Shown here piece after piece: positions 581 through 43,002 of a stretch of DNA of 64,000 nucleotides. The stretch comes from Neisseria cinerea. Its GTDB lineage: Bacteria; Pseudomonadota; Gammaproteobacteria; Burkholderiales; Neisseriaceae. The position numbers were made by a program, and so were the translations under genes. How positions within the stretch are numbered: the first letter of the stretch is position 1; each line of letters opens with the position of its first letter. The notes beneath the pieces are model-generated. The model was not told the DNA's origin, did not search any database, and saw only the letters and a list, made by a program, of their open reading frames with translations. The stretch lies in NCBI RefSeq assembly GCF_900475315.1, contig NZ_LS483369.1:496001-560000 (forward strand), written 5' to 3'.

Positions 581-1279
581 TCAATCCAGCACGCTCCACC
601 AAAATACCCTACCTATAACGGTCAGGCTATCTAAAGGGGCAGTTTCGTCTTTGTATTCCGGGTTGTAGCTTTTGATGCGTACTTGGTTATCAGGCAGCTT
701 TTGCAAGATTTTTGTACGCAACAGCCCACCGTGGTTGATGGCATAGATTTTGCCGTCTTTAATTATTTTATCGGCGGTATTAATGCCTAGTGTAGCCCCA
801 TCGGGGAATACCGGCTCCATACTGTCTCCGTCGGCAGATACGCAGACAACATCATCGGGGCTTATCCCATGCCGTCTTAAGGTCGATTTCGAGAAGCGCA
901 GTTTATAGCCGTTATGGTCTTCAATGTCATCTGAAAAACCGTTACCGGCTGACAAACAAACGTCTTTATAAAATGGAACTTCGCAATCATCGTCAGATAA
1001 CGGTGTTTTGCTATCCCAAGCGTCAACAGTGCCGATAACGGTGGCGTTTGATTTGATGGAATCAACAGGGGTGCCCGGATCATCTTTTCCATCCATCCAT
1101 CCGCGCGGCAATCCAAGCGCGGTTTCAATTTGTGTGGCTACGCCGTCCCCAATATTCCTGTATCCATTAAGCCATTGGTTTATTTGTGCCGGCGCCTTGT
1201 TGATTGCCCGGGAAAACTCAGCTTGATTGCCGTTAAACCTGCCAGCTATCAGATTTTTAATTCTATCTACTCGGTTCAT
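581..1279 (-). CDS. Prophage CI-type repressor, LexA/S24 family
   Basis: A 232-residue repressor that should keep the lytic genes off and be destroyed by RecA-stimulated self-cleavage. An N-terminal helix-turn-helix spans about residues 17-58 (QAEFSRAINKAPAQINQWL). The S24 peptidase domain covers about residues 100-230. Catalytic Ser153 lies in GDSMEP and the general-base Lys190 in LLRTKIL. The expected Ala-Gly cleavage bond is A111-G112 in CLSAG. The start follows a GGAGGG ribosome site. It diverges from the Cro-like gene at 1393 across an AT-rich operator region. All parts needed for SOS induction are present, so the switch looks intact. Confidence 0.93.
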   Translation of the reverse strand: MNRVDRIKNLIAGRFNGNQAEFSRAINKAPAQINQWLNGYRNIGDGVATQIETALGLPRGWMDGKDDPGTPVDSIKSNATVIGTVDAWDSKTPLSDDDCEVPFYKDVCLSAGNGFSDDIEDHNGYKLRFSKSTLRRHGISPDDVVCVSADGDSMEPVFPDGATLGINTADKIIKDGKIYAINHGGLLRTKILQKLPDNQVRIKSYNPEYKDETAPLDSLTVIGRVFWWSVLD

Positions 1280-1392: not shown

Positions 1393-1623
1393 ATGAATTT
1401 AAGAGATTATTGCGCAATACGCGGCAATCAGTCTGATTTGGCAAGAAAAACAGGAATTTCCCCGTCTTTTATCTATCAGATTGCCAAAGGATTGAAGCCC
1501 GTCCCTATTCAGTCAGCAGCGTTGATTGAAAAGTCAACAAACGGCAGGGTAACACGAAAAGAGATGTTTCCTGATACCTGGCATTTAATCTGGCCAGAAT
1601 TGGCAGGCGACCAAACCAAATAA
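1393..1623 (+). CDS. Cro-like regulator, YdaS-type helix-turn-helix
   Basis: A 76-residue DNA-binding protein. The helix-turn-helix lies at about residues 13-45 (QSDLARKTGISPSFIYQIA), followed by a short tail with a conserved-looking FPDTWHLIWPEL segment. This matches the YdaS/Cro-like family encoded opposite CI-type repressors. It is the first rightward gene after the operators and is preceded by an AGAGGT ribosome site. It probably turns off repressor synthesis on lytic growth. A hairpin with GCCCGTC/GACGGGC arms follows at 1627-1649. Confidence 0.8.
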   Translation: MNLRDYCAIRGNQSDLARKTGISPSFIYQIAKGLKPVPIQSAALIEKSTNGRVTRKEMFPDTWHLIWPELAGDQTK

Positions 1624-2246: not shown

Positions 2247-5093
2247 ATGAATAAAAAATATGCAACAAAAGCCGAAATTAATGCCGCCGCGCATGGCCGG
2301 TGGCGTGAGGTTTTAGAAGCGTGCGGCATACCGTCCGAAATTTTAGATAAAAAACATCACCCCTGTCCGTCATGCGGCGGATCCGACAGATTCAGGTTTA
2401 CGGACGGTAACGGTTCAAGTCGCGGGAGTGGTGTTTGGATTTGTAATCAATGCAAGCCCGAAGGCGGCAGCCCGTTTGATTTGTTGATGGATGTTTGCGG
2501 TTATAGTTTTAACGAGGCTAGAGACAAAGTTGCCTCCTTGCTTGGGTTGGCGCATGGGGATTTGGTAGATAAGGCTCCGAAGCCGTTACCTCCTCCTGCT
2601 CCAGTAAAGGAGGAGGAGCGTGATTTGTGGAAGCCAATCGTTCCTGTGCCTGAATATGCGCTGAATTCTATGAGCTTTGGGAATGGATTTAGAAAATCAG
2701 ACGACCTGATTTTTAAATCTGTTTTCCGCGATAGCTCCGGCGCGGTTTTGGGCGGTGTTGCCCGATTTAGAAAATCAGACGGCGGAAAAATCGATCTGCC
2801 TTATACGTTTTGTGAGCATAAGAAAACAGGCGAAAAGATGTGGCGTTGGCGTTGTTGGGATAACCCGCACCCATTGTACGGTCTTGATTCTTTGGCTGCT
2901 GACCCATCATTACCGGTTTTGGTTGTTGAGGGGGAGAAATGTAAGAACGCGGCAGATGCTCAGGGTTATAACTATGCCGTCCTGACGTGGCATGGCGGTT
3001 GTAACAACTGGGATAAGTCGGATTGGTCGGCGGTTGTTGATCGTGATGTTGTCTTGTGGCCTGATTGTGATTCTTTGCGCCAAAAGTTGACGAAAAAAGA
3101 GCGTGAAGATGGTGTTGACCCTGAATCCAAACCGTTTCTGCCGCGCAATGAGCAGGGCGGAATGAAGGCGATGTTTGGTATTGCTGAGGTACTGACAAAG
3201 CAGAATTGCCGCGTTTGGTTGGTCAATATTCCTGCTCCAGGGATATGGCCTCATGGTTTCGATATTGCCGATGCAATTGCAGGCGGTGGGCGCATCGTCG
3301 ACCCTTCCGAAGTATTGAGCTGGATGGGCGCGGCGGATTGGCTGGTTGAGTATGTGCCGGAAGCGGAAATGCCGTCTGAAAACTTTCCCGCACCCATTCA
3401 AGATATGGAGCCGGAATCTGAGCAGTTGCATGAATCTCTCGAAGCAACAGGCAATCAAGGGGGCGCGGGGGATATGGATGACGAATTTTTGTCCAAATTG
3501 CAAAAGCTGAAATCAGAATTTGGGCTTGTTGAGGGTAAGGACCACGGGGTGAACAGGAAGACTGGGGTTACATATACCCGAAAAGCCATGACCGTTCATT
3601 TCGGCAAAGACGTTGTTGATGCTTGGTATGAATGGGGCCATGCGCCGGTGCTGACTATGTACGAAATCAACCGTCTGAAAAAAGACTATGCGTTGATTCA
3701 GGCGGTCAATGATGATGACACGCAAGATATGATGGAGCGTTTCATTTATCTTGATGGTTCGGCATCGATTTGGGACAACAAACTATGGCGCGTTGTCCCT
3801 GAAAAGGCGGCTCGTCTGTCGATGACTCCTGATGGTTTTAAAATTTGGGTCAATAGTCCGAGCCGAATTGTAAAACGGTTCGACCGATTGGTCTTTGAGC
3901 CTGGTCGGGTGTTGTCTGACGACTATATCAACATTTTTCGAGGCATGCCGATTGAACCGAAATTCCCGATTCCCAAAGAGGATATGCCCAAAACAAACTA
4001 CGAATTGTATAGATTATTCCCCGAAATCAAGCCGATTTTGAATCTGATTAATCATTTGTGCAATGGTGATTACCAACAGGTCGAGTATCTGCTGAATTGG
4101 CTTGCGTATCCGTTGCAAAACGTAGGCGCAAAGATGACGACCGCCGTTGTCATGCACGGTCATACCCACGGCGCTGGTAAATCGTTACTTTTCGAGCAGA
4201 TCATTAAGCCAATGTACGGCGAATATGGTGCAACATACGGACAAGAAGATTTAGAAAGCAATTACACGGCGAACCGATCAGGGAAAATGTTTGGTCTTTT
4301 TGAAGAGGTTTATACGAATCAGCAAAAATACAATAAGACAGGCAGCCAAAAACACATGATTACCGGTAAGACAATGCGCGTCGAGCGGAAATTTCAGGAT
4401 GCTTACGAAGAGGGAAATCACATGAATTGCGTGTTTCTTTCCAACGAGTCTCAGCCTTTCAAAATTGAAGAAAACGACCGCCGTTATTTCGTTGTGTGGC
4501 CTGAGAAAAAATTGGATGACGCATTGCGCAATGAGGTTTTGGAATGTATCGGTAACGATGGTGTCCGCCTGTTTTATAGCTTCCTGCTGTGTTGGAATTT
4601 TTATCTGACGCGCAGACAAAAAGAAGCGGAAAACGAGAAAGGATACGAAGTAATCAAACTGGAAGAGCCTGTGCGATTCGATCCAAACACGCCGCCGCCG
4701 ATGACTGCCGCGAAACAAAACGTCATTTCCTATGGCCGCTATGCTTGGCAGACCTTTTATTCTGAGTGGTCTGGTGGTGGGATTAAAGACCTGCCGTTTT
4801 GCTGTTGCATTACAGACGACCTTTGGTTGGTTTACAAAGAGTGGTGCAGGCAAAACGGCGAGCGGGAAACTGGTAAAACAAAGTTTCTCCAACACATTGC
4901 TGAGAAGATGCCGCGGGCGCGGCGCTGGTGGCGGACGAAAAATAAAGATGGCGACGTATCGTGTCAAAACTGGATTTTTAAGCCGGCTGGCTGGCAAGCG
5001 GCGGACGGATTGCCGGAAATGGATGCCCTGGGCAATGAGGTTTTACGATTCCGCAGCGCTGGTTGGAGGTATCGCGGCGGTGAAGAAGTTTGA
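2247..5093 (+). CDS. Phage primase-helicase, P4 alpha type
   Basis: A 948-residue replication protein combining primase and helicase functions. The N-terminus has a primase zinc ribbon (CPSC at about residue 40, CNQC at about 67). A TOPRIM-like segment follows at about residues 220-275 (VLVVEGEK and WPDCDS). The C-terminal half is an SF3/DUF5906-type helicase with a Walker A motif in GHTHGAGKS near residue 640. In P4-like phages one such protein primes, unwinds and binds iterons at the origin. Here an iteron-rich inverted repeat lies just downstream at 5190-5520, matching that scheme. A full DUS is embedded in the gene at 3369-3380 and encodes MPSE. Confidence 0.9.
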   Translation: MNKKYATKAEINAAAHGRWREVLEACGIPSEILDKKHHPCPSCGGSDRFRFTDGNGSSRGSGVWICNQCKPEGGSPFDLLMDVCGYSFNEARDKVASLLGLAHGDLVDKAPKPLPPPAPVKEEERDLWKPIVPVPEYALNSMSFGNGFRKSDDLIFKSVFRDSSGAVLGGVARFRKSDGGKIDLPYTFCEHKKTGEKMWRWRCWDNPHPLYGLDSLAADPSLPVLVVEGEKCKNAADAQGYNYAVLTWHGGCNNWDKSDWSAVVDRDVVLWPDCDSLRQKLTKKEREDGVDPESKPFLPRNEQGGMKAMFGIAEVLTKQNCRVWLVNIPAPGIWPHGFDIADAIAGGGRIVDPSEVLSWMGAADWLVEYVPEAEMPSENFPAPIQDMEPESEQLHESLEATGNQGGAGDMDDEFLSKLQKLKSEFGLVEGKDHGVNRKTGVTYTRKAMTVHFGKDVVDAWYEWGHAPVLTMYEINRLKKDYALIQAVNDDDTQDMMERFIYLDGSASIWDNKLWRVVPEKAARLSMTPDGFKIWVNSPSRIVKRFDRLVFEPGRVLSDDYINIFRGMPIEPKFPIPKEDMPKTNYELYRLFPEIKPILNLINHLCNGDYQQVEYLLNWLAYPLQNVGAKMTTAVVMHGHTHGAGKSLLFEQIIKPMYGEYGATYGQEDLESNYTANRSGKMFGLFEEVYTNQQKYNKTGSQKHMITGKTMRVERKFQDAYEEGNHMNCVFLSNESQPFKIEENDRRYFVVWPEKKLDDALRNEVLECIGNDGVRLFYSFLLCWNFYLTRRQKEAENEKGYEVIKLEEPVRFDPNTPPPMTAAKQNVISYGRYAWQTFYSEWSGGGIKDLPFCCCITDDLWLVYKEWCRQNGERETGKTKFLQHIAEKMPRARRWWRTKNKDGDVSCQNWIFKPAGWQAADGLPEMDALGNEVLRFRSAGWRYRGGEEV

Positions 5094-33394: not shown

Positions 33395-33430
33395 ATAATT
33401 ATTGAGTTATTAAATAAAACTTAATAACTG

Positions 33431-33453
33431 AACCGTCAACTTCGGGTTGACGG
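33431..33453 (+). terminator. Terminator of the late operon
   Basis: CCGTCAAC-TTCG-GGTTGACGG is a perfect 8-9-bp stem with a stable UUCG loop. It stands 36 bases past the endolysin stop. Late transcription from terminase to endolysin probably ends here. Confidence 0.75.
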
Positions 33454-33473
33454 TTGACTGTATTACAGCATTG

Positions 33474-33502
33474 ATGCCGTCTGAAGGGCTTTCAGACGGC
33501 AT
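33474..33502 (+). terminator. Inverted DUS pair between convergent genes
   Basis: ATGCCGTCTGAA and TTCAGACGGCAT are 12-base perfect arms around a 5-base loop, followed by T's. It acts as a bidirectional terminator between the late operon and the leftward antirepressor gene, and as an uptake signal. Confidence 0.85.
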
Positions 33503-33820
33503 TTCTGTTTACCTTACCGTAGCCTTGCTGTAAATGCCTTCAAGACATCCGGCTATGCGGTCGGAGGTATCTTTGTCCGCATATCCCCGCAACACTTCGA
33601 GGGCTGCGACGGTTCTTTTCAGGATTGAACGGGTTTCGTGCCAAACCGTCCACATCGTAACCGCCTGTCTGTTGCCAAGCTGTTTGAGCGGCGCGGAGAT
33701 GTCTTTGCCCAATTCAATCATCCATGTGCCGTAATAAACCATAGCGGCAATGTCGGCTAAAGAGTTGTTGTCGATGGGCAGTTTCGGCTCGGCTTTGGGC
33801 GGTGCGTCCAACACTTCGCC
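33491..33820 (-). repeat. 330-bp direct repeat, copy 1 (shared antirepressor 3' module)
   Basis: Bases 33491-33820 are almost identical to 34894-35223 (offset 1403); the difference I noticed is TT versus CC at about 33770. The repeat includes half of a DUS and the shared C-terminal coding module of both antirepressor-type genes. Confidence 0.9.
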
Positions 33821-34417
33821 GTACAGCACGCCGTTTTCAACTGCCACGCGGCTCATCACGCTTAAAACTTCGGGGAACTGTTCGGCAGGCACTTCTTTGT
33901 AGCTGCATCCGAACTTGCTTTTGACGGCAGACCAAAGGGTAATAGCGATACGCGCCTGCGCTTCTTTGGGTGCTGATTTGGTCAGGGCGTTGTGCAGTTT
34001 TTTGACGGCTTCGATTTGTTCGCCGGTCAAACCGTCGGGCAGGGCGCGGGTGGGTTTGGGGTGTCCAACCCTTGGATTGAAGTGTTCGTTCAACACTCGG
34101 AAACATTCGCGCTGGTAGGTCAGCAGGCGGGAACGGATTTCGGGTTTCACCCGCCGCGCATCGACGCCGAACAGCCAGCCGTTGAGGTAGTCGAGGGGTA
34201 GGCATGCGGTTTCATAGGTTTTACCATCGGTGGCAGGTATGGTCATCATGACCATACCTGATTTTAAGATTTCACTGCGTTGGATTTTTTTATATTGTGA
34301 AACCCAATCCAAGCCGATATTTTCGACTATCGGCTTCATGGCGACGTAGTGTTGGTTGTTGTGGGAAAAGACGGGCACGGTTTGACCGTGGAAAGAGATA
34401 TTTTGAACTTGGTTCAT
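33509..34417 (-). CDS. P22 Ant-type antirepressor with shared C-terminal module
   Basis: A 302-residue protein. The N-terminus (about residues 1-115) is a P22 antirepressor domain (GQTVPVFSHNNQHYVAMKPI, ETACLPLDYLNGWLFGVDA, SRLLTYQRECF). The C-terminal about 100 residues, from GEVLDAPPKAEPKLP onward, are nearly identical to those of the leftward gene 34912-35802. Antirepressors inactivate a phage repressor to promote lytic growth. The start has TAGGAAACC upstream, and this RBS segment is complementary to the 5' end of the leader RNA element. Confidence 0.85.
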   Translation of the reverse strand: MNQVQNISFHGQTVPVFSHNNQHYVAMKPIVENIGLDWVSQYKKIQRSEILKSGMVMMTIPATDGKTYETACLPLDYLNGWLFGVDARRVKPEIRSRLLTYQRECFRVLNEHFNPRVGHPKPTRALPDGLTGEQIEAVKKLHNALTKSAPKEAQARIAITLWSAVKSKFGCSYKEVPAEQFPEVLSVMSRVAVENGVLYGEVLDAPPKAEPKLPIDNNSLADIAAMVYYGTWMIELGKDISAPLKQLGNRQAVTMWTVWHETRSILKRTVAALEVLRGYADKDTSDRIAGCLEGIYSKATVR

Positions 34418-34420
34418 GAT

Positions 34421-34545
34421 GGTTTCCTAGTTTAGTTTCGAAAGACCCAAATGGGCGGTCGGGAGGTTCGAAAACCTACTAGAAAAGGCCGGCGTTATTC
34501 CCCTCGCGGGTATTGTATTCCGCACCCTCCCGACCATAGGAAACC
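34421..34545 (-). ncRNA. C4-like antisense/leader RNA upstream of the Ant-type gene
   Basis: Read on the minus strand, the 5' segment GGTTTCCTA (34537-34545) is exactly complementary to TAGGAAACC (34421-34429), which contains the gene's ribosome site. Inside lies a 10-bp stem GGTCGGGAGG/CCTCCCGACC (34526-34535 with 34457-34466), then a GGTGCGG...CGCCGG core and an AGGTT-TTCG-AACCT hairpin. Size, core and position resemble the C4 RNA that blocks ant translation in P1/P7. The function is inferred. Confidence 0.6.
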
Positions 34546-34546
34546 A

Positions 34547-34724
34547 GTTCGGATATATCGAAACAAACAACCAAACAAGGAAACTATGGACATGAAAAAA
34601 TCACATTGACGGAGTGATTGCCGTTCTAGTAGAGGTTTTCGACGCCTCGTGAACCAAACTATACAAAAAAACCGCCTTCGTGTAAAGCGGTTGAAGAGAG
34701 CCTTTTATTTTGACAGGAGGTAGG
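34547..34724. other. Intergenic control region between the antirepressor leader and small gene
   Basis: Contains CGAAACAAACAACCAA (34559 onward), which recurs at 35926 upstream of the second leader. At 34624-34649 a copy of the leader's TTCTAGTAG-GGTTTTCG loop appears in opposite orientation. CCGCCTT...AAGCGG at about 34671-34690 forms a hairpin ahead of the small gene. No other gene is evident. Confidence 0.45.
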
Positions 34725-34886
34725 ATGAACGCCAAAGAATTTTGTGAAAAGCAAATCGCCTATTGGCTGAATGAGAGCCGAAATGCGAGCGATCGTGCCG
34801 ATTTGAAGGCCTTTGAATTTGCCGAACGGGAATTGGCGAATTATCGGGAAATGTTGAAACAAATATTGAAACGTTATGCCGTCTGA
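34725..34886 (+). CDS. 53-residue small prophage protein, copy 1
   Basis: A small charged helical protein (MNAKEFCEKQIAYWLNES...KRYAV), not among recognised families. A CAGGAGG ribosome site lies upstream. A paralogue at 38223-38384 shares most residues and an identical 3' stretch of about 87 bases, and similar upstream sequence (CTTTTTATTTTGACAGG). Its last codons GCC-GTC-TGA are supplied by a DUS. The duplication and conserved ribosome site strongly support a translated gene. Confidence 0.7.
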   Translation: MNAKEFCEKQIAYWLNESRNASDRADLKAFEFAERELANYREMLKQILKRYAV

Positions 34887-34905
34887 AGCCTTGTTCAGAC
34901 GGCAT
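34876..34905 (+). terminator. Inverted DUS pair
   Basis: Two 12-base DUS arms face each other around a short loop between the convergent genes 34725-34886 and 34912-35802. The left arm supplies the stop codon of the 53-residue gene. Confidence 0.85.
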
Positions 34906-35223
34906 TTCTGTTTACCTTACCGTAGCCTTGCTGTAAATGCCTTCAAGACATCCGGCTATGCGGTCGGAGGTATCTTTGTCCGCATATCCCCGCAACACTT
35001 CGAGGGCTGCGACGGTTCTTTTCAGGATTGAACGGGTTTCGTGCCAAACCGTCCACATCGTAACCGCCTGTCTGTTGCCAAGCTGTTTGAGCGGCGCGGA
35101 GATGTCTTTGCCCAATTCAATCATCCATGTGCCGTAATAAACCATAGCGGCAATGTCGGCTAAAGAGTTGCCGTCGATGGGCAGTTTCGGCTCGGCTTTG
35201 GGCGGTGCGTCCAACACTTCGCC
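34894..35223 (-). repeat. 330-bp direct repeat, copy 2
   Basis: Near-identical partner of 33491-33820, covering a DUS half and the C-terminal module of the Rha-type gene. Recombination between copies would delete about 1.4 kb and fuse the alternate N-terminal domain to the same C-terminus. Confidence 0.9.
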
Positions 35224-35802
35224 CGTCAAGCCTGTGTGCAGGGTCAGCGCGTGGGCATAGGCGACGGCTTCGGGCAGCTTTTCGGCGGGGATGTCTTCGA
35301 TGGCTTCGACGTTGAAGCGTTGGTGAATCATACTGTACGCGGAGGAGTAGTCTATGCCTTTGCGTCCGACAAGCGCGGCAACGGCTTGGCGCAATCCGGT
35401 ACGGTCGTCAGCGGTGGTTTTGGCAGGCTTGATGCCGTCTGAAACGGTGTTGTTTAAATCTAGAATAGCTTTACTCATGGCATTGAAGGCTTCGATATAG
35501 GCAATTTTAATTGCCATCGCCTGTTTGCCTGTGAATCCCATCACTAGCAACATAAAACCGTCTTTGGTCAGTTCGTAGCTTTTTGTTTCGCGAAAACCGA
35601 AGCCTGTCTTTACCTGTTTTGCTTTGGGCTTAAAATTAAGCTCAAAGAAAGAAGCCTTGATTTCTTTAGAGATTTGTTCAATTCGCGCCAACAGGTTTTT
35701 ATGCTCTTTCCCGAATGCTTGGGCTACAAATTCGCTGGTGGTTACGATTTGGGAATTTTGGATTTGGACAAAATTTTGAAAGTTGATTGAAATTGCGTTC
35801 AT
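34912..35802 (-). CDS. Rha-type regulatory protein with shared C-terminal module
   Basis: A 296-residue protein. The N-terminal about 115 residues form a phage Rha domain (IVTTSEFVAQAFGKEHKNLLARI and SYELTKDGFMLLVMGFTG), found in antirepressor-like regulators. A linker (residues 125-195) follows. The C-terminal module from GEVLDAPPKAEPKLP is nearly identical to the P22 Ant-type gene next door. ACGGAG precedes the ATG. A DUS sits within it at 35432-35443. It likely counteracts a repressor. Confidence 0.85.
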   Translation of the reverse strand: MNAISINFQNFVQIQNSQIVTTSEFVAQAFGKEHKNLLARIEQISKEIKASFFELNFKPKAKQVKTGFGFRETKSYELTKDGFMLLVMGFTGKQAMAIKIAYIEAFNAMSKAILDLNNTVSDGIKPAKTTADDRTGLRQAVAALVGRKGIDYSSAYSMIHQRFNVEAIEDIPAEKLPEAVAYAHALTLHTGLTGEVLDAPPKAEPKLPIDGNSLADIAAMVYYGTWMIELGKDISAPLKQLGNRQAVTMWTVWHETRSILKRTVAALEVLRGYADKDTSDRIAGCLEGIYSKATVR

Positions 35803-35820
35803 ACTGAACTCCGTAAGTTT

Positions 35821-35918
35821 AGGATTAAAAGAATACCCAAGGAATGGGTGGGGGTGTCCTACGTCTTACGAACGCCGGGTCGTTGCCGATACCCGCACCC
35901 CCGTAAACTTTTAATCCT
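35821..35918 (-). ncRNA. C4-like antisense/leader RNA upstream of the Rha-type gene
   Basis: On the minus strand an outer stem AGGATTAAAAG/CTTTTAATCCT (35908-35918 with 35821-35831) encloses GGGGGTG/CACCCCC (35896-35902 with 35850-35856). Core GGTGCGGGTA...CCGGCGTT and an ACCCATTCCTTGGGT hairpin are present. AAGTTT next to the outer stem could pair with AAACTT just before the ribosome site, giving an alternative fold. Layout matches the leader of the Ant-type gene although the sequence differs, suggesting a shared regulatory class. Confidence 0.55.
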
Positions 35919-35924
35919 ATCGCT

Positions 35925-36368
35925 ATCGAAACAAACAACCAAGGAGCAACAGAATGAAATTCGGGAATGTGTAGATATGAAAAAACCGACAACAGGTCGG
36001 GTGCTGCGTAAGAGTAGGAAATTCGATAATAGTTTTTTTCGGTTGAGACTGTCAATAGGTAACTGAAAAATCCAGTGTGCAAAATCTCATAGTGAAACAA
36101 AATCAAATACCTATACCACTCCTCAAAATTGAGGAGTGAAACAGAATCAATGGCTTATTGTTTTATTTCATGTTCCTCAAATTTGAGGAACAAATAAAAA
36201 TCAATATTTTATCTTCTCAAAAATCCAAGCCGCGCGTTTGCGTCAAGTTCAGACGGCATAAAGCAGCCCGCAGGCTGCGTACAATATATTTTTAACTAGT
36301 AATTTATTATTTGCAAATATATTACTTGCAATATATAATTTGCACATATTTTCAATAGGAGAAAAGTA
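35925..36368. promoter_or_regulatory. Regulatory region between Rha-type and P63C genes
   Basis: Two 20-bp perfect palindromes occur: ACTCCTCAAAATTGAGGAGT (36118-36137) and GTTCCTCAAATTTGAGGAAC (36172-36191), sharing core CCTCAAA-TTTGAGG type. Direct repeats AGTGAAACA(A/G)AATCAA (36091 and 36135) accompany them. Further right, TTGCAAATATATT, TTGCAATATATAA and TTGCACATATT (36314-36352) form a three-copy array just before the P63C gene. Two or more DNA-binding regulators probably act here. No convincing gene is seen within this stretch. Confidence 0.65.
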
Positions 36369-37409
36369 ATGTCAAAAACTCAATCAGTAACAGGCCGTGC
36401 TATTGGCGGGAAAGTCAGAGCAGAGAAAATGACACCGGAGCAACGCAAGGAACAGGCGGCTAAAATGGTAGCTGCTAAGCAAGCTAAGGCAGCAATGCCG
36501 AAAGTGATTCACAAGAAATTGCCTTTAATATTGGGAGATGTTCAGATTCCATGTGCCGTTATTCAATATCCAAATGGCGAAGTAAAGCGCGTTTTGACTG
36601 AAAACGGTATCCTGACAGCTATCTACGGCAAAGCAGGGATGGCATCTGGCGCTTCAAAAAGAAGCCGAGAAAAAGCGTTGAACAACGGCATGGCCCCTAT
36701 GCCGTTATTTCTATCCCCAGAACGACTTAGACCACTGATTCTAGAAGATGAAACGTTATCGGCCCTACTGCTAAAAATAGAGTACATGGACGATAAGGAA
36801 ATAGTCAGTGGATATGATGCCTCTATTCTGCCATCTGTCTGTGAGATATGGCTTAAAGCTAGGGATATGGGAATTTTGCAAAGCCAACAGTTAGGTCGAG
36901 CGCAAAAAGCTGAATTGTTAATGCGAGCATTGGCTCATATAGGCATTATTGCTCTTGTTGATGAGGCAACTGGCTATCAAGACGTACGATCAAAAGATGC
37001 CCTTGCTAAAATCCTTGAGGCTTTCGTTGCGAAAGAGCTGCAGCCTTGGGTTAAAACATTCCCTTTGGAATATTATAAAGAGCTTTGCCGGTTGTATAAC
37101 GTTCCTTTCCCTCCGCTTAAGAACAACCAATTCCCGCAGTTCTTCGGGCATATTACCAACAACGCTATATATACCCGTCTTGCTCCAGAGCTACTGCCTG
37201 AGTTGAAAAAAGCGGCCAGCAAACAGGAGAAAAAAGCCAAACTACATCAACTTTTAACGCAAGATGTCGGGCATCCGAAACTGAAGGAGCACCTGGCTTC
37301 CGTCGTTACGTTATTGAAGTTGGCCAAAGATAAGGATGACTTCAGCCGTATGCTAGATATTGTCCATCCCAAACTAAATAACACCATACCGCTTGATTTG
37401 GGCGAGTAA
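36369..37409 (+). CDS. P63C-domain phage protein
   Basis: A 346-residue protein with a basic, Gly/Ala/Lys-rich N-terminus (residues 1-45). The middle includes KRVLTENGILTAIYGKAG. The C-terminal P63C domain spans about residues 210-320 (WVKTFPLEYYKELCRLYNVP, FFGHITNNAIYTRLAP, LHQLLTQDVGHPKL). P63C proteins are common in phages and mobile elements and often linked to antirepressor functions, but their biochemistry is unknown. An AGGAG ribosome site precedes the ATG. A terminator follows. Confidence 0.85.
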   Translation: MSKTQSVTGRAIGGKVRAEKMTPEQRKEQAAKMVAAKQAKAAMPKVIHKKLPLILGDVQIPCAVIQYPNGEVKRVLTENGILTAIYGKAGMASGASKRSREKALNNGMAPMPLFLSPERLRPLILEDETLSALLLKIEYMDDKEIVSGYDASILPSVCEIWLKARDMGILQSQQLGRAQKAELLMRALAHIGIIALVDEATGYQDVRSKDALAKILEAFVAKELQPWVKTFPLEYYKELCRLYNVPFPPLKNNQFPQFFGHITNNAIYTRLAPELLPELKKAASKQEKKAKLHQLLTQDVGHPKLKEHLASVVTLLKLAKDKDDFSRMLDIVHPKLNNTIPLDLGE

Positions 37410-37430
37410 AAAGCAGCCATCTCCTACATA

Positions 37431-37457
37431 AAGAACCCCCTGCATATGCAAGGGGTT
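37431..37457 (+). terminator. Terminator of the P63C gene
   Basis: ACCCCCTGCATATGCAAGGGGTTTTG: CCCCTTG/AAGGGG-type stem with AT-rich palindromic loop and a following T-run. Directly after the P63C stop, it ends that transcript. Confidence 0.75.
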
Positions 37458-37634
37458 TTGTTACCTTATTTGGGTTTGCGTTTAAAATTCTCGCAAACTA
37501 TCCGTGAGATGGCGGGTCAGCAGGGGGGTAGCGATAGCACCATCATCATCAATTCGACAGGCGGCGACTTCATCCATAAAAAGGATTTGGCGAAGCTGTT
37601 GAAACAGATGAAACGGGACTTTAAATTTGTCTGA
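37446..37634 (+). CDS. Small phage protein or remnant
   Basis: A 62-residue reading frame starting inside the preceding terminator (37446); the true start may be later. The C-terminal half (STIIINSTGGDFIHKKDLAKLL) resembles C-terminal ends of larger phage structural proteins rather than a free protein. No ribosome site is evident. Best considered a remnant left near the prophage end. A DUS pair follows at 37639-37664. Confidence 0.4.
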   Translation: MQGVLLPYLGLRLKFSQTIREMAGQQGGSDSTIIINSTGGDFIHKKDLAKLLKQMKRDFKFV

Positions 37635-37638
37635 GAAA

Positions 37639-37664
37639 ATGCCGTCTGAAGATTCAGACGGCAT
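37639..37664 (+). terminator. Inverted DUS pair
   Basis: ATGCCGTCTGAA-GA-TTCAGACGGCAT, a tight 12-bp hairpin between convergent genes. Confidence 0.85.
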
Positions 37665-37692
37665 CGCCCCCGCCGTTTGCCAGCAAAAAACC

Positions 37693-37721
37693 GCCAAGTT
37701 TTCGGCTTGGCGGCGGTCGGG
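37693..37721 (-). terminator. Terminator of the ribbon-helix-helix gene
   Basis: CCGCCAAG-TTTTCGG-CTTGGCGG stem lies just beyond the stop of the minus-strand gene 37722-37889 and is followed on that strand by TTTTTT. A rho-independent terminator. Confidence 0.75.
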
Positions 37722-37889
37722 CTATTTTAAGAACTCTTTTCGGATTTGTTCTTTAACCCATTGGGAAAAATCAATTTTATTTGCAAACTCGAGTAAATCT
37801 TTCTCGGTTTCGTTGTTAAAAGAGACATTTTTTATCGTCCGTTTGGCTGCCGCCCGTTTGCGGTATTCCGCCAGTTTTTCATCAACCAT
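37722..37889 (-). CDS. Ribbon-helix-helix small DNA-binding protein
   Basis: A 55-residue protein encoded on the minus strand, too short for routine calling. The pattern RTIKNVSFNNETEKDLLEFA then SQWVKEQIRKEF matches ribbon-helix-helix (CopG/Arc-like) proteins: a beta strand followed by two helices. AAGGAT precedes its ATG. It lies near the prophage right end and could bind one of the palindromes at 36.1 kb or control its own promoter. Confidence 0.6.
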   Translation of the reverse strand: MVDEKLAEYRKRAAAKRTIKNVSFNNETEKDLLEFANKIDFSQWVKEQIRKEFLK

Positions 37890-37991
37890 AGGGAATCCTT
37901 GATTTTTAAAACCGTTGTAGTAAAATGGCTCGTAGAAAGGTTGGCGAAAGGGGCGCGGTGCTCTGCCACCCCTTGTTATTTCAGTTTTTCA

Positions 37992-38048
37992 TTAGTAGGC
38001 CGGAGAGCAAACTAACAAAAGAAACAGGAATAAAATAACTTTCGCCAT
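37992..38048 (-). CDS. 18-residue hydrophobic peptide
   Basis: The minus strand has AGGAGG, then ATG and MAKVILFLFLLLVCSPAY. This resembles a short signal-like or type I toxin/holin-type peptide. The strong ribosome site argues for translation; size and lack of known family keep confidence low. Confidence 0.35.
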   Translation of the reverse strand: MAKVILFLFLLLVCSPAY

Positions 38049-38082
38049 TTCTTCAAGCCTCCTTTCTATCCGATAAGCCCCC

Positions 38083-38113
38083 GAAGTTGCCGCTTCGGGG
38101 CTTTGCTTTATCG
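38083..38113. terminator. GC-rich hairpin, probable terminator
   Basis: CCCCGAAG-TTGCC-GCTTCGGGG is a stable stem followed on the plus strand by CTTTGCTTT. It could also separate the 18-residue peptide from upstream leftward transcription. Confidence 0.55.
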
Positions 38114-38222
38114 AATAGATGTATTATATTATGTATAGACATAATTATCAAGCGTTTTATGCGAAAATCCGCCTTTGTATAAGGCAATTGTAGAAAGCTT
38201 TTTATTTTGACAGGGTACAGAA

Positions 38223-38384
38223 ATGACCGCCGAAGAATTTTGTGAAAAGCAAATCGACTATTGGTTGAACGAGAGCCGTAAGGCATCAGATAACGCCGAT
38301 TTGAAGGCCTTTGAATTTGCCGAACGGGAATTGGCGAATTATCGGGAAATGTTGAAACAAATATTGAAACGTTATGCCGTCTAA
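38223..38384 (+). CDS. 53-residue small prophage protein, copy 2
   Basis: Paralogue of 34725-34886 (MTAEEFCEKQIDYWLNES...KRYAV). Residues differ at several positions in the first half, while the last about 29 residues and their DNA are identical. The final GCC-GTC-TAA uses a DUS variant with one base changed so that TAA replaces TGA. The ribosome site (GACAGGGT) is weaker than in copy 1. It is the last gene before the probable prophage end. Confidence 0.65.
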   Translation: MTAEEFCEKQIDYWLNESRKASDNADLKAFEFAERELANYREMLKQILKRYAV

Positions 38385-38407
38385 ATCTTCAGACGGCATT
38401 GACCGTA

Positions 38408-38443
38408 AAAACAAGCCGCCATATTTCAGGCGGCTTGTTTTTT
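38408..38443 (+). terminator. Strong terminator near the prophage right end
   Basis: AACAAGCCGCC and GGCGGCTTGTT form an 11-bp stem with a run of seven or more T's. It ends transcription of the last prophage gene. Confidence 0.85.
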
Positions 38444-38642
38444 TATTCCTCATCGTCATATTTTTTGAAAATATTTTTATTTTATTTGCACCTTTTTTGC
38501 ACCTTTTTTTATAAATATTATTCAAATATTTGATTTATATATTAATTTAATAAAATATCACATGACCTTGCATAGGGGCAAGGATGATTCGGGTTTTTTG
38601 TTTGGGTTCGTTTGTTTGTCTGTCAATCATGATTTGGGTAGG
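38444..38642. other. AT-rich gene-free stretch, likely prophage right boundary
   Basis: Bases between the terminator and the Correia element are AT-rich with no supported gene. CCTTGCATAGGGGCAAGG at 38567-38584 forms a hairpin. The attachment site (attR) is probably within this stretch or close to it, but the matching left end is not in the window. Confidence 0.4.
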
Positions 38643-38749
38643 TATAGTGGATTAAATTTAAACCAGTACAGCGTTGCCTCGCCTTGCCGTACTATTTGTA
38701 CTGTCTGCGGCTTCGTCGCCTTGTCCTGATTTAAATTTAATCCACTATA
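38643..38749. repeat. Correia element (CREE)
   Basis: A 107-bp element begins TATAGTGGATTAAATTT and ends AAATTTAATCCACTATA, with internal CAGTACAGCGTTGCC, GCCGTACTATTTGTACTGTC and GGCTTCGTCGCCTTGTCCTG. This is a full-length neisserial Correia repeat, a mobile MITE-like unit. It can carry promoters or be cleaved by RNase III in transcripts. Confidence 0.95.
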
Positions 38750-42903: not shown

Positions 42904-43002
42904 AGGCGGGTCTCTCCGCATGGTCAGTCGGAACAACGGGTCAGGGGCGGAAGCCAGCAGCCCACTCCGATACGCCAGTGCCGGAGGTTTGGCTCGCCAC
43001 CC
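42904..43002 (+). ncRNA. ffs: 4.5S RNA (signal recognition particle RNA)
   Basis: The conserved SRP domain IV core GGGTCAGGGGCGGAAGCCAGCAGCCC is present in pieces (GGTCAGG, GGAAGCCAGCAGCC), with closing arms GGCGGGTCTC at the 5' end and GGAGGTTTGGCTCGCC at the 3' end. It pairs with Ffh to target membrane proteins. A perfect -10 promoter precedes it and a terminator follows. Confidence 0.92.

Follow-up and report, generated by a model that had tools for sequence, protein, structure and literature searches.

Two antirepressor-family genes with one shared tail and two different predicted C4-type leader RNAs in a Neisseria cinerea prophage

A 64,000-nucleotide stretch of the Neisseria cinerea genome (contig NZ_LS483369.1, positions 496,001 to 560,000; hereafter the window) encodes a terminase, a portal protein, a capsid protein, a tape measure protein, a CHAP-domain protein and an S24 repressor, and it therefore contains a tailed-phage prophage. 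Two genes of this prophage, the open reading frames (ORFs) ORF-A and ORF-R, carry different N-terminal heads of antirepressor families on an almost identical C-terminal tail. We propose that these genes are preceded by two different RNAs of the C4 type, each fitted to two sites, the ribosome-binding site of the gene that follows it and an upstream site, element A, and that in the lysogen each gene is probably silenced by its own antisense RNA. The interest of the finding would come mostly from these leaders, which appear as two different C4-type modules, each fitted to its own gene. A previous sequence-only reading had suggested two inputs that feed a common effector; that idea is supported, although the visible inputs are the two RNA leaders, which that reading did not see, and these leaders most likely act as two antisense-RNA switches that work separately.

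Leader RNA modules of ORF-A and ORF-R

Pfam scores place a P22_AR_N head (E 3e-37; 127.6 bits against a cut-off of 30.7) on ORF-A (33509..34417, minus strand, 302 aa), followed by a middle module, mid1, and the shared tail. ORF-R (34912..35802, minus strand, 296 aa) has a Rha head (Phage_pRha, E 6e-25; 88.2 bits against a cut-off of 29.9), followed by another middle module, mid2, and the same tail. These scores confirm the P22 Ant and Rha N-domains that the sequence-only reading had assigned to two leftward genes. The P22_AR_C model reaches 15.1 bits on the ORF-A tail, under its cut-off of 22.4. An antirepressor function of the two proteins is suggested by their family names.

The ORF-A leader contains an RNA (34450..34534, minus strand, as are all features of both modules) that ends 32 bases before the start codon and scores 69.9 bits against the Rfam family sRNA-Xcc1 (RF02221; gathering cut-off 53, E 1e-11). 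Its loop is complementary to the ribosome-binding site of ORF-A (34418..34443), with a predicted pairing energy of -16.8 kcal/mol that 18 of 2000 shuffles equalled, and also to element A (34621..34651; -21.4 kcal/mol, 10 of 2000 shuffles as good). Both pairings are supported by the co-variation described below. Next to element A lies a terminator-like hairpin (34594..34619), which falls outside the limits of our hairpin scan (a loop of at most 8, 3 G-C pairs) and so is not listed there, and beyond element A lies a promoter-like site, TTTACA-17-TATAGT (34658..34686; 10 of 12 consensus bases), which overlaps a further terminator-like hairpin at 34670-34692.

In front of ORF-R, the corresponding RNA (35839..35907, 36 bases before the start codon) matches c4-2 (RF02944) with 34.8 bits and E 1.2e-4. 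This is under the gathering cut-off of 41 bits, and we therefore call the RNA c4-2-like. Its loop is complementary to the ORF-R ribosome-binding site (35803..35831; -15.4 kcal/mol, 32 of 2000 shuffles as good), a pairing that recurs at 10 of 10 c4-2 loci, and to its own element A (36000..36021; -22.4 kcal/mol, 0 of 2000 shuffles). The terminator-like hairpin of this module (35979..36000) is listed by the scan, and its promoter-like site, TTGACA-18-TATTAT (36026..36055; 11 of 12 consensus bases), is the best of the 10 in the region, where 3.6 were expected; such sites lie upstream of both modules.

Seen from the promoter side, both modules have the same order: promoter-like site, element A, terminator-like hairpin, an exact 19-mer, RNA and gene. 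The 19-mer, TTGGTTGTTTGTTTCGATA, occurs once per leader (34556..34574 and 35924..35942) and twice in the window, compared with 0.04 copies expected; a similar form is present in many Neisseria leaders, and it is possibly a processing site or a second promoter. In both cases, predicted pairing joins an RNA in the leader of an antirepressor-family gene to the ribosome-binding site of that gene, and further complementary sites are predicted upstream of the RNA, as in a C4-type system. The predicted cross pairings between modules A and R (-10.2, -8.2, -4.8 and -11.2 kcal/mol) are weaker than the own pairings. The C4 model itself (RF01695) has no match at E 1 or better in 33400-38700.

In the proposed mechanism, each RNA would be released from its leader and would pair at the ribosome-binding site of the gene behind it, so that translation is blocked. 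The RNA of the resident prophage would also silence a superinfecting phage whose loop is the same, a phage with a different loop would go on to express its antirepressor, and the two modules with their different loops would place one shared effector tail under two separate locks. In an alternative reading the leaders act only in cis: each would fold into an attenuator in which the ribosome-binding site is hidden, with no separate trans-acting RNA, as loop, target and element A all lie on one transcript. We consider this unlikely. The RNA has a conserved, closed fold by itself, some RNAs have no gene directly behind them, and sRNA-Xcc1 was found as a discrete RNA of 88 nt in Xanthomonas (PMC2996969). 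C4, moreover, acts in trans in phages P1 and P7.

The role of element A can be read in two ways. The promoter-like site, element A and terminator would together yield an RNA of 50-60 nt, which could soak up the antisense RNA and switch the antirepressor on, as the short IsrK does in Gifsy-1 (PMC4825925). The likeness between element A and target (on average 6.58 identical bases, see below) would suit such a sponge, which we regard as a possible but not the favoured role. In 16 of 22 distinct A segments, a raw count with no null, an alternative hairpin interlocks with the terminator, and in some A segments the CGG/CCG of the interlocked hairpins is replaced by CCG/CGG. These interlocking hairpins suggest that pairing of the RNA with element A may also promote early termination, as the CI RNA of phage P4 does, and they fit a P4-like attenuator rather than a sponge. 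The sponge and attenuator roles could both hold.

Co-variation and distribution of the leader RNAs

The proposal that each RNA is fitted to its own gene is supported by co-variation. From the Neisseriaceae we aligned 28 sRNA-Xcc1-type leaders, proviruses included; L148 (no element A in reach) and L163 (no gene behind) were left out, and the remaining 26 gave 19 distinct loops. The mean longest complementary run of these loops is 6.95 to the own target versus 3.75 to other targets, and 7.37 to the own element A versus 3.59 to others, while target and element A share a mean of 6.58 identical bases versus 3.64 for non-own combinations. None of the three values was reached in 20,000 permutations, and no other partner beats the own one for 14 of 19 loops (target) and 17 of 19 (element A). 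L037 and L038 have near-identical leaders and heads, yet their loop, target and element A have changed together.

At 29 sRNA-Xcc1 loci sampled from the phylum outside this family, the downstream run is 6.41 versus 4.74 (0 of 20,000 permutations) and reaches at least 6 in 18 of 29, compared with 19% for non-own combinations; upstream, the 28 loci with enough sequence give 7.11 versus 5.63 (again 0 of 20,000). Ten c4-2 loci, all of them below the cut-off, have mean runs of 6.80 versus 4.64 and 7.20 versus 5.01 (0 of 20,000), and each shows a run of at least 6 to both sites. Five of the ten have ORFs of at least 260 aa that resemble antirepressors on visual inspection, and the remaining five have shorter ones of 109-141 aa.

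RF02221 matches were found in 25 of the 83 family genomes (19 of them above cut-off), in 57 of 398 genomes of the phylum sample, which includes the genome of the window (39 above cut-off), and in none of 14 control genomes. A scan of named genomes gave 6 loci, including N. sicca and N. gonorrhoeae. Among 30 family loci, 28 have a downstream ORF, and these gave 25 antirepressor-head matches (AntA 7, Bro-N 6, P22_AR_N 5, KilA-N 5, Rha 2). The 29 phylum loci have 27 such ORFs, with Bro-N in 5, Rha in 3, KilA-N in 1 and SymE in 2, and at 4 of all 59 loci no ORF of at least 55 aa lies directly behind the RNA. In the phages Aaphi23 and Rac-SA53, an sRNA-Xcc1 RNA directly precedes a gene annotated as ant. 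At the two SymE loci (L107 and L127), seven bases of the loop match the leader at the ribosome-binding site, which would explain the arrangement of this RNA with symE.

Leaders were also compared among genes that bear the shared tail, of which 27 of 29 are distinct genes once two truncated fragments are left out. An sRNA-Xcc1-type leader precedes 16 of the 27, 13 of them at or above cut-off and three (L033, L036 and L011) by alignment. Four have a c4-2-like leader below cut-off, and three a C4-type leader (L006 above and L005 below cut-off; L027 has the same leader as L005).

Some loci carry RNAs with no gene directly behind them, and in tandem C4-type modules one gene stands behind the last RNA. 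L164 has C4, sRNA-Xcc1, C4 and sRNA-Xcc1 in tandem between 1066 and 2107, and L013 and L016 have RNAs at 3002-3086 and 3521-3605, that is, an extra RNA upstream of the gene-proximal one. L160, one of the 4 loci with no ORF directly behind the RNA, has an sRNA-Xcc1 RNA at 1501-1586 (minus strand; 45.9 bits, below cut-off), and its loop would fit the ribosome-binding sites of antirepressor genes in two other genomes, at L153 by 8 bases and at L152 by 7. It is possible that tandem C4-type modules are RNA immunity arrays.

Several results weigh against the reading of these leaders as fitted antisense switches. Taken singly, the window pairings are just moderately unusual by the shuffle counts given above, and the c4-2 match is under cut-off in the window and at all other c4-2 loci. 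An own run longer than every other is seen for 8 of 19 loops (target) and 14 of 19 (element A), and 11 of 29 phylum loops lack a run of at least 6 to the downstream 64 bases. The permutations control composition, not the relatedness of the loci, a caveat to which joint changes between near-identical leaders are a partial answer. By duplex energy, the own target is best at 6 of 58 loci; this measure is dominated by base composition, and we therefore rejected it as the sole measure and used run length with permutation instead. The own-target mean over the 58 loci beats all 10,000 permutations of the energies. On the side of the genes, neither SymE nor a head of an antirepressor family was matched by 16 of the 27 ORFs that follow RF02221 at the phylum loci, and 4 of the 27 tail-bearing genes, of one Bro-N type, have no recognized RNA leader (L019, L018 and L021 were scanned; L009 has the same leader). 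As for the additional RNAs, in L013 and L016 the extra one lacks a match to the element A of its own module, and for the orphan loop of L164 the best fit to any target in the set is no longer than 5 bases. The four genes with no recognized leader are of the Bro-N type known from antirepressors of gonococcal prophages, which were described in 2007 (PMC1931599).

A shuffled and homogenized tail

The two tail blocks (ORF-A, 33491..33820; ORF-R, 34894..35223; both minus strand) form a direct repeat with a spacing of 1403. They differ at 2 of 330 bases (33768 and 33769) and, as protein, at 1 of 103 residues, so that the tails are 99% identical, compared with 18% for the heads and 25% for the middles. 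Each block includes one arm of a DNA uptake sequence (DUS) hairpin behind the gene, which marks one limit of the repeat; the other limit is a hinge that reads GEVLD (GEILD in the tail of L039). The near-identical tail of about 100 residues with its DUS half had been noticed in the sequence-only reading and stands as described. In the rest of the single-contig 1.83 Mb genome, the sole further match to the block is 22 bases long, and close phage records gave only short matches. The window holds 46 exact copies of what we take to be the DUS 12-mer.

A search with the tail as the only query returned 963 proteins with E values up to 1e-5. Among the 120 that were listed, the heads are of the KilA-N, Bro-N, Rha or P22_AR_N family and the tails are at least 92% identical, and the named proteins among the matches listed come from several Neisseria species. 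Two middle modules occur among the tail-bearing relatives. L013 and P0024 are 90% identical in the head and 99% in the middle, yet only 51% in the tail; likewise, L020 and L038 agree at 96% in the head and 89% in the middle, with tails 53% identical. The opposite combination is seen for ORF-A and P0024, which agree at 100% in the middle and 98% in the tail, with heads 21% identical. Overall, relatives that share head (90-96%) and middle (89-100%) have tails 36-53% identical. Recombinants of both kinds indicate exchange at two hinges, in agreement with the domain shuffling that had been suggested for this pair. We had considered that mid1 with this tail might be peculiar to the window, as a result of local conversion from ORF-R; this was wrong, as mid1 and the tail stand together behind KilA-N and P22_AR_N heads elsewhere in Neisseria.

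Nine pairs among the 120 listed proteins are each inferred, from an equal length of the longest contig, to share one contig. In eight of them the two heads belong to different Pfam families, and the ninth has two KilA-N heads. The two tails of a pair differ at 0-2 of 103 residues (mean 0.78), compared with a mean of 2.9 between contigs, and 1 of 50,000 permutations reached the within-pair similarity. The shared tail is real and is part of a widespread, shuffled and homogenized set; its homogenization within an element fits concerted evolution by gene conversion. Such matched tails could be a by-product of conversion between nearby repeats, devoid of functional meaning, as conversion between repeats 1.4 kb apart requires no selection and DUS hairpins abut both tail copies. 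We give this explanation somewhat less than an even chance. Heads and middles are unrelated, which means that the pair is not a whole-gene duplicate, and different heads with matched tails recur on nine inferred contigs, a pattern that fits, but does not prove, selection.

A functional explanation had been offered in which the shared tail binds one repressor and the two heads sense different inputs. The presumed antirepression target is a CI-like repressor with a helix-turn-helix and an S24 peptidase domain (581..1279, minus strand; assigned from domain matches). The presence of two heads on one homogenized tail agrees with this explanation, and antirepressors of this kind are named for acting on phage repressors. 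We compared tail and repressor types across the prophage of the window and 11 others with CI-like repressors; of 20 records searched for a repressor, 7 without a match and 2 with weak matches (29% and 31%) were left out. Tail type does not track repressor type in these 12 prophages (Mantel r 0.16, p 0.11; r 0.09, p 0.22 without the duplicate L014), and neither do the heads. Prophages with repressors 94-95% identical to that of the window have tails just 51-52% identical, and in two prophages whose repressors are 100% identical the tails agree at only 54%; by contrast, tails 89-90% identical are found with repressors 39-41% identical. The tail as the repressor-specific part is thus not supported, and we now think it improbable that this explanation as a whole is correct.

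Unrelated heads on common C-terminal modules are a shared property of this set and of the phage regulators with Bro-N, KilA-N, AntA, Rha and P22_AR_N heads whose shuffling was reportedly described by Iyer and others in 2002. The difference here is that one tail, at least 92% identical, stands behind four head families among the 120 listed proteins and is homogenized within one element.

In the surroundings of the antirepressor pair, a gene for a P63C-domain protein (36369-37409, plus strand; E 7e-25) adjoins it, and two similar small ORFs of about 53-58 aa, both on the plus strand, lie between the two genes (34710-34886) and behind the P63C gene (38223-38384). The bacterial small signal recognition particle (SRP) RNA at 42905-43001 (plus strand) is an ordinary host gene.

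Comparison with known RNA switches

The analysis offers a testable function for sRNA-Xcc1, a family found in the 57 of 398 sampled phylum genomes noted above, and a possible reason for its standing before symE in Xanthomonas integrons. It also describes one effector tail kept near-identical in two genes with different heads and different RNA control, which makes the contact partner of the tail directly testable. A wider interpretation is tentative, and we hold it with clearly less confidence than the silencing of each gene by its own RNA: C4-type RNAs, sRNA-Xcc1 included, could be a diversifying phage RNA immunity in which loop, ribosome-binding site and element A change together while heads and tails shuffle freely. 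Tandem RNAs without genes might then be stored immunity against the antirepressors of other phages, and with the two locks of the present prophage a superinfecting relative would be silenced only if both of its loops were matched. If the leaders work as proposed, the superinfection immunity of such prophages could be read from sequence, as a loop of about 7 bases and two matching sites.

By score, the ORF-A leader RNA is a member of sRNA-Xcc1, and this family likely belongs to the C4-type class. In the available portions of the literature, it appears as a trans-acting or virulence-linked small RNA and upstream of symE in integrons. The report of its discovery predicted targets and left its function unsettled (PMC2996969), other papers link it to virulence (PMC8780938, PMC12189769), and a 2025 paper that notes its position upstream of symE in integron cassettes suggested a divergent regulatory mechanism (PMC12444791). 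What differs here is a co-varying match to the ribosome-binding site of the downstream gene itself. A link between sRNA-Xcc1 and C4, or two RNA classes over one shared tail, was not found in the portions of the literature searched.

Among the closest known systems is C4 of P1 and P7 (RF01695), which likewise is a structured RNA in an antirepressor leader, is complementary to a ribosome-binding site, has upstream target sites and has loop types that differ between phages; according to a review, it pairs around the ant ribosome-binding site (PMC12197685). The clan mates of C4 are c4-2 (RF02944) and c4-a1b1 (RF03163), and Rfam describes the latter as the a1 and b1 targets of C4; c4-a1b1 was listed in 2010 (PMC2864571). 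The present case differs in that the ORF-A RNA is from another Rfam family (sRNA-Xcc1, with no clan), in that the two genes, which share one tail, are preceded by RNAs of two classes, and in the number of loops, at least 19 in one bacterial family.

The immunity system of P4 also uses an antisense RNA with one upstream and one downstream complementary site: the partners of CI RNA are seqA (upstream) and seqC (downstream), and IsrK has been compared with it (PMC4825925). P4, however, controls replication genes by termination, whereas in our modules the downstream site coincides with the ribosome-binding site of an antirepressor gene, with control by termination as a proposed addition. The isrK-anrP locus of Gifsy-1 resembles our modules in having a short terminated upstream RNA, then an antirepressor leader, with mutual complementarity. 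In Gifsy-1, orf45 is translated and coupled to anrP, and we claim no such leader ORF here; the isrK model (RF01394) has no match at E 1 or better in 33400-38700, and matches below cut-off occur in L006 and L164. The layout is already known in kind, and what would be new is the place of sRNA-Xcc1 in it and the use of two RNA classes over one tail.

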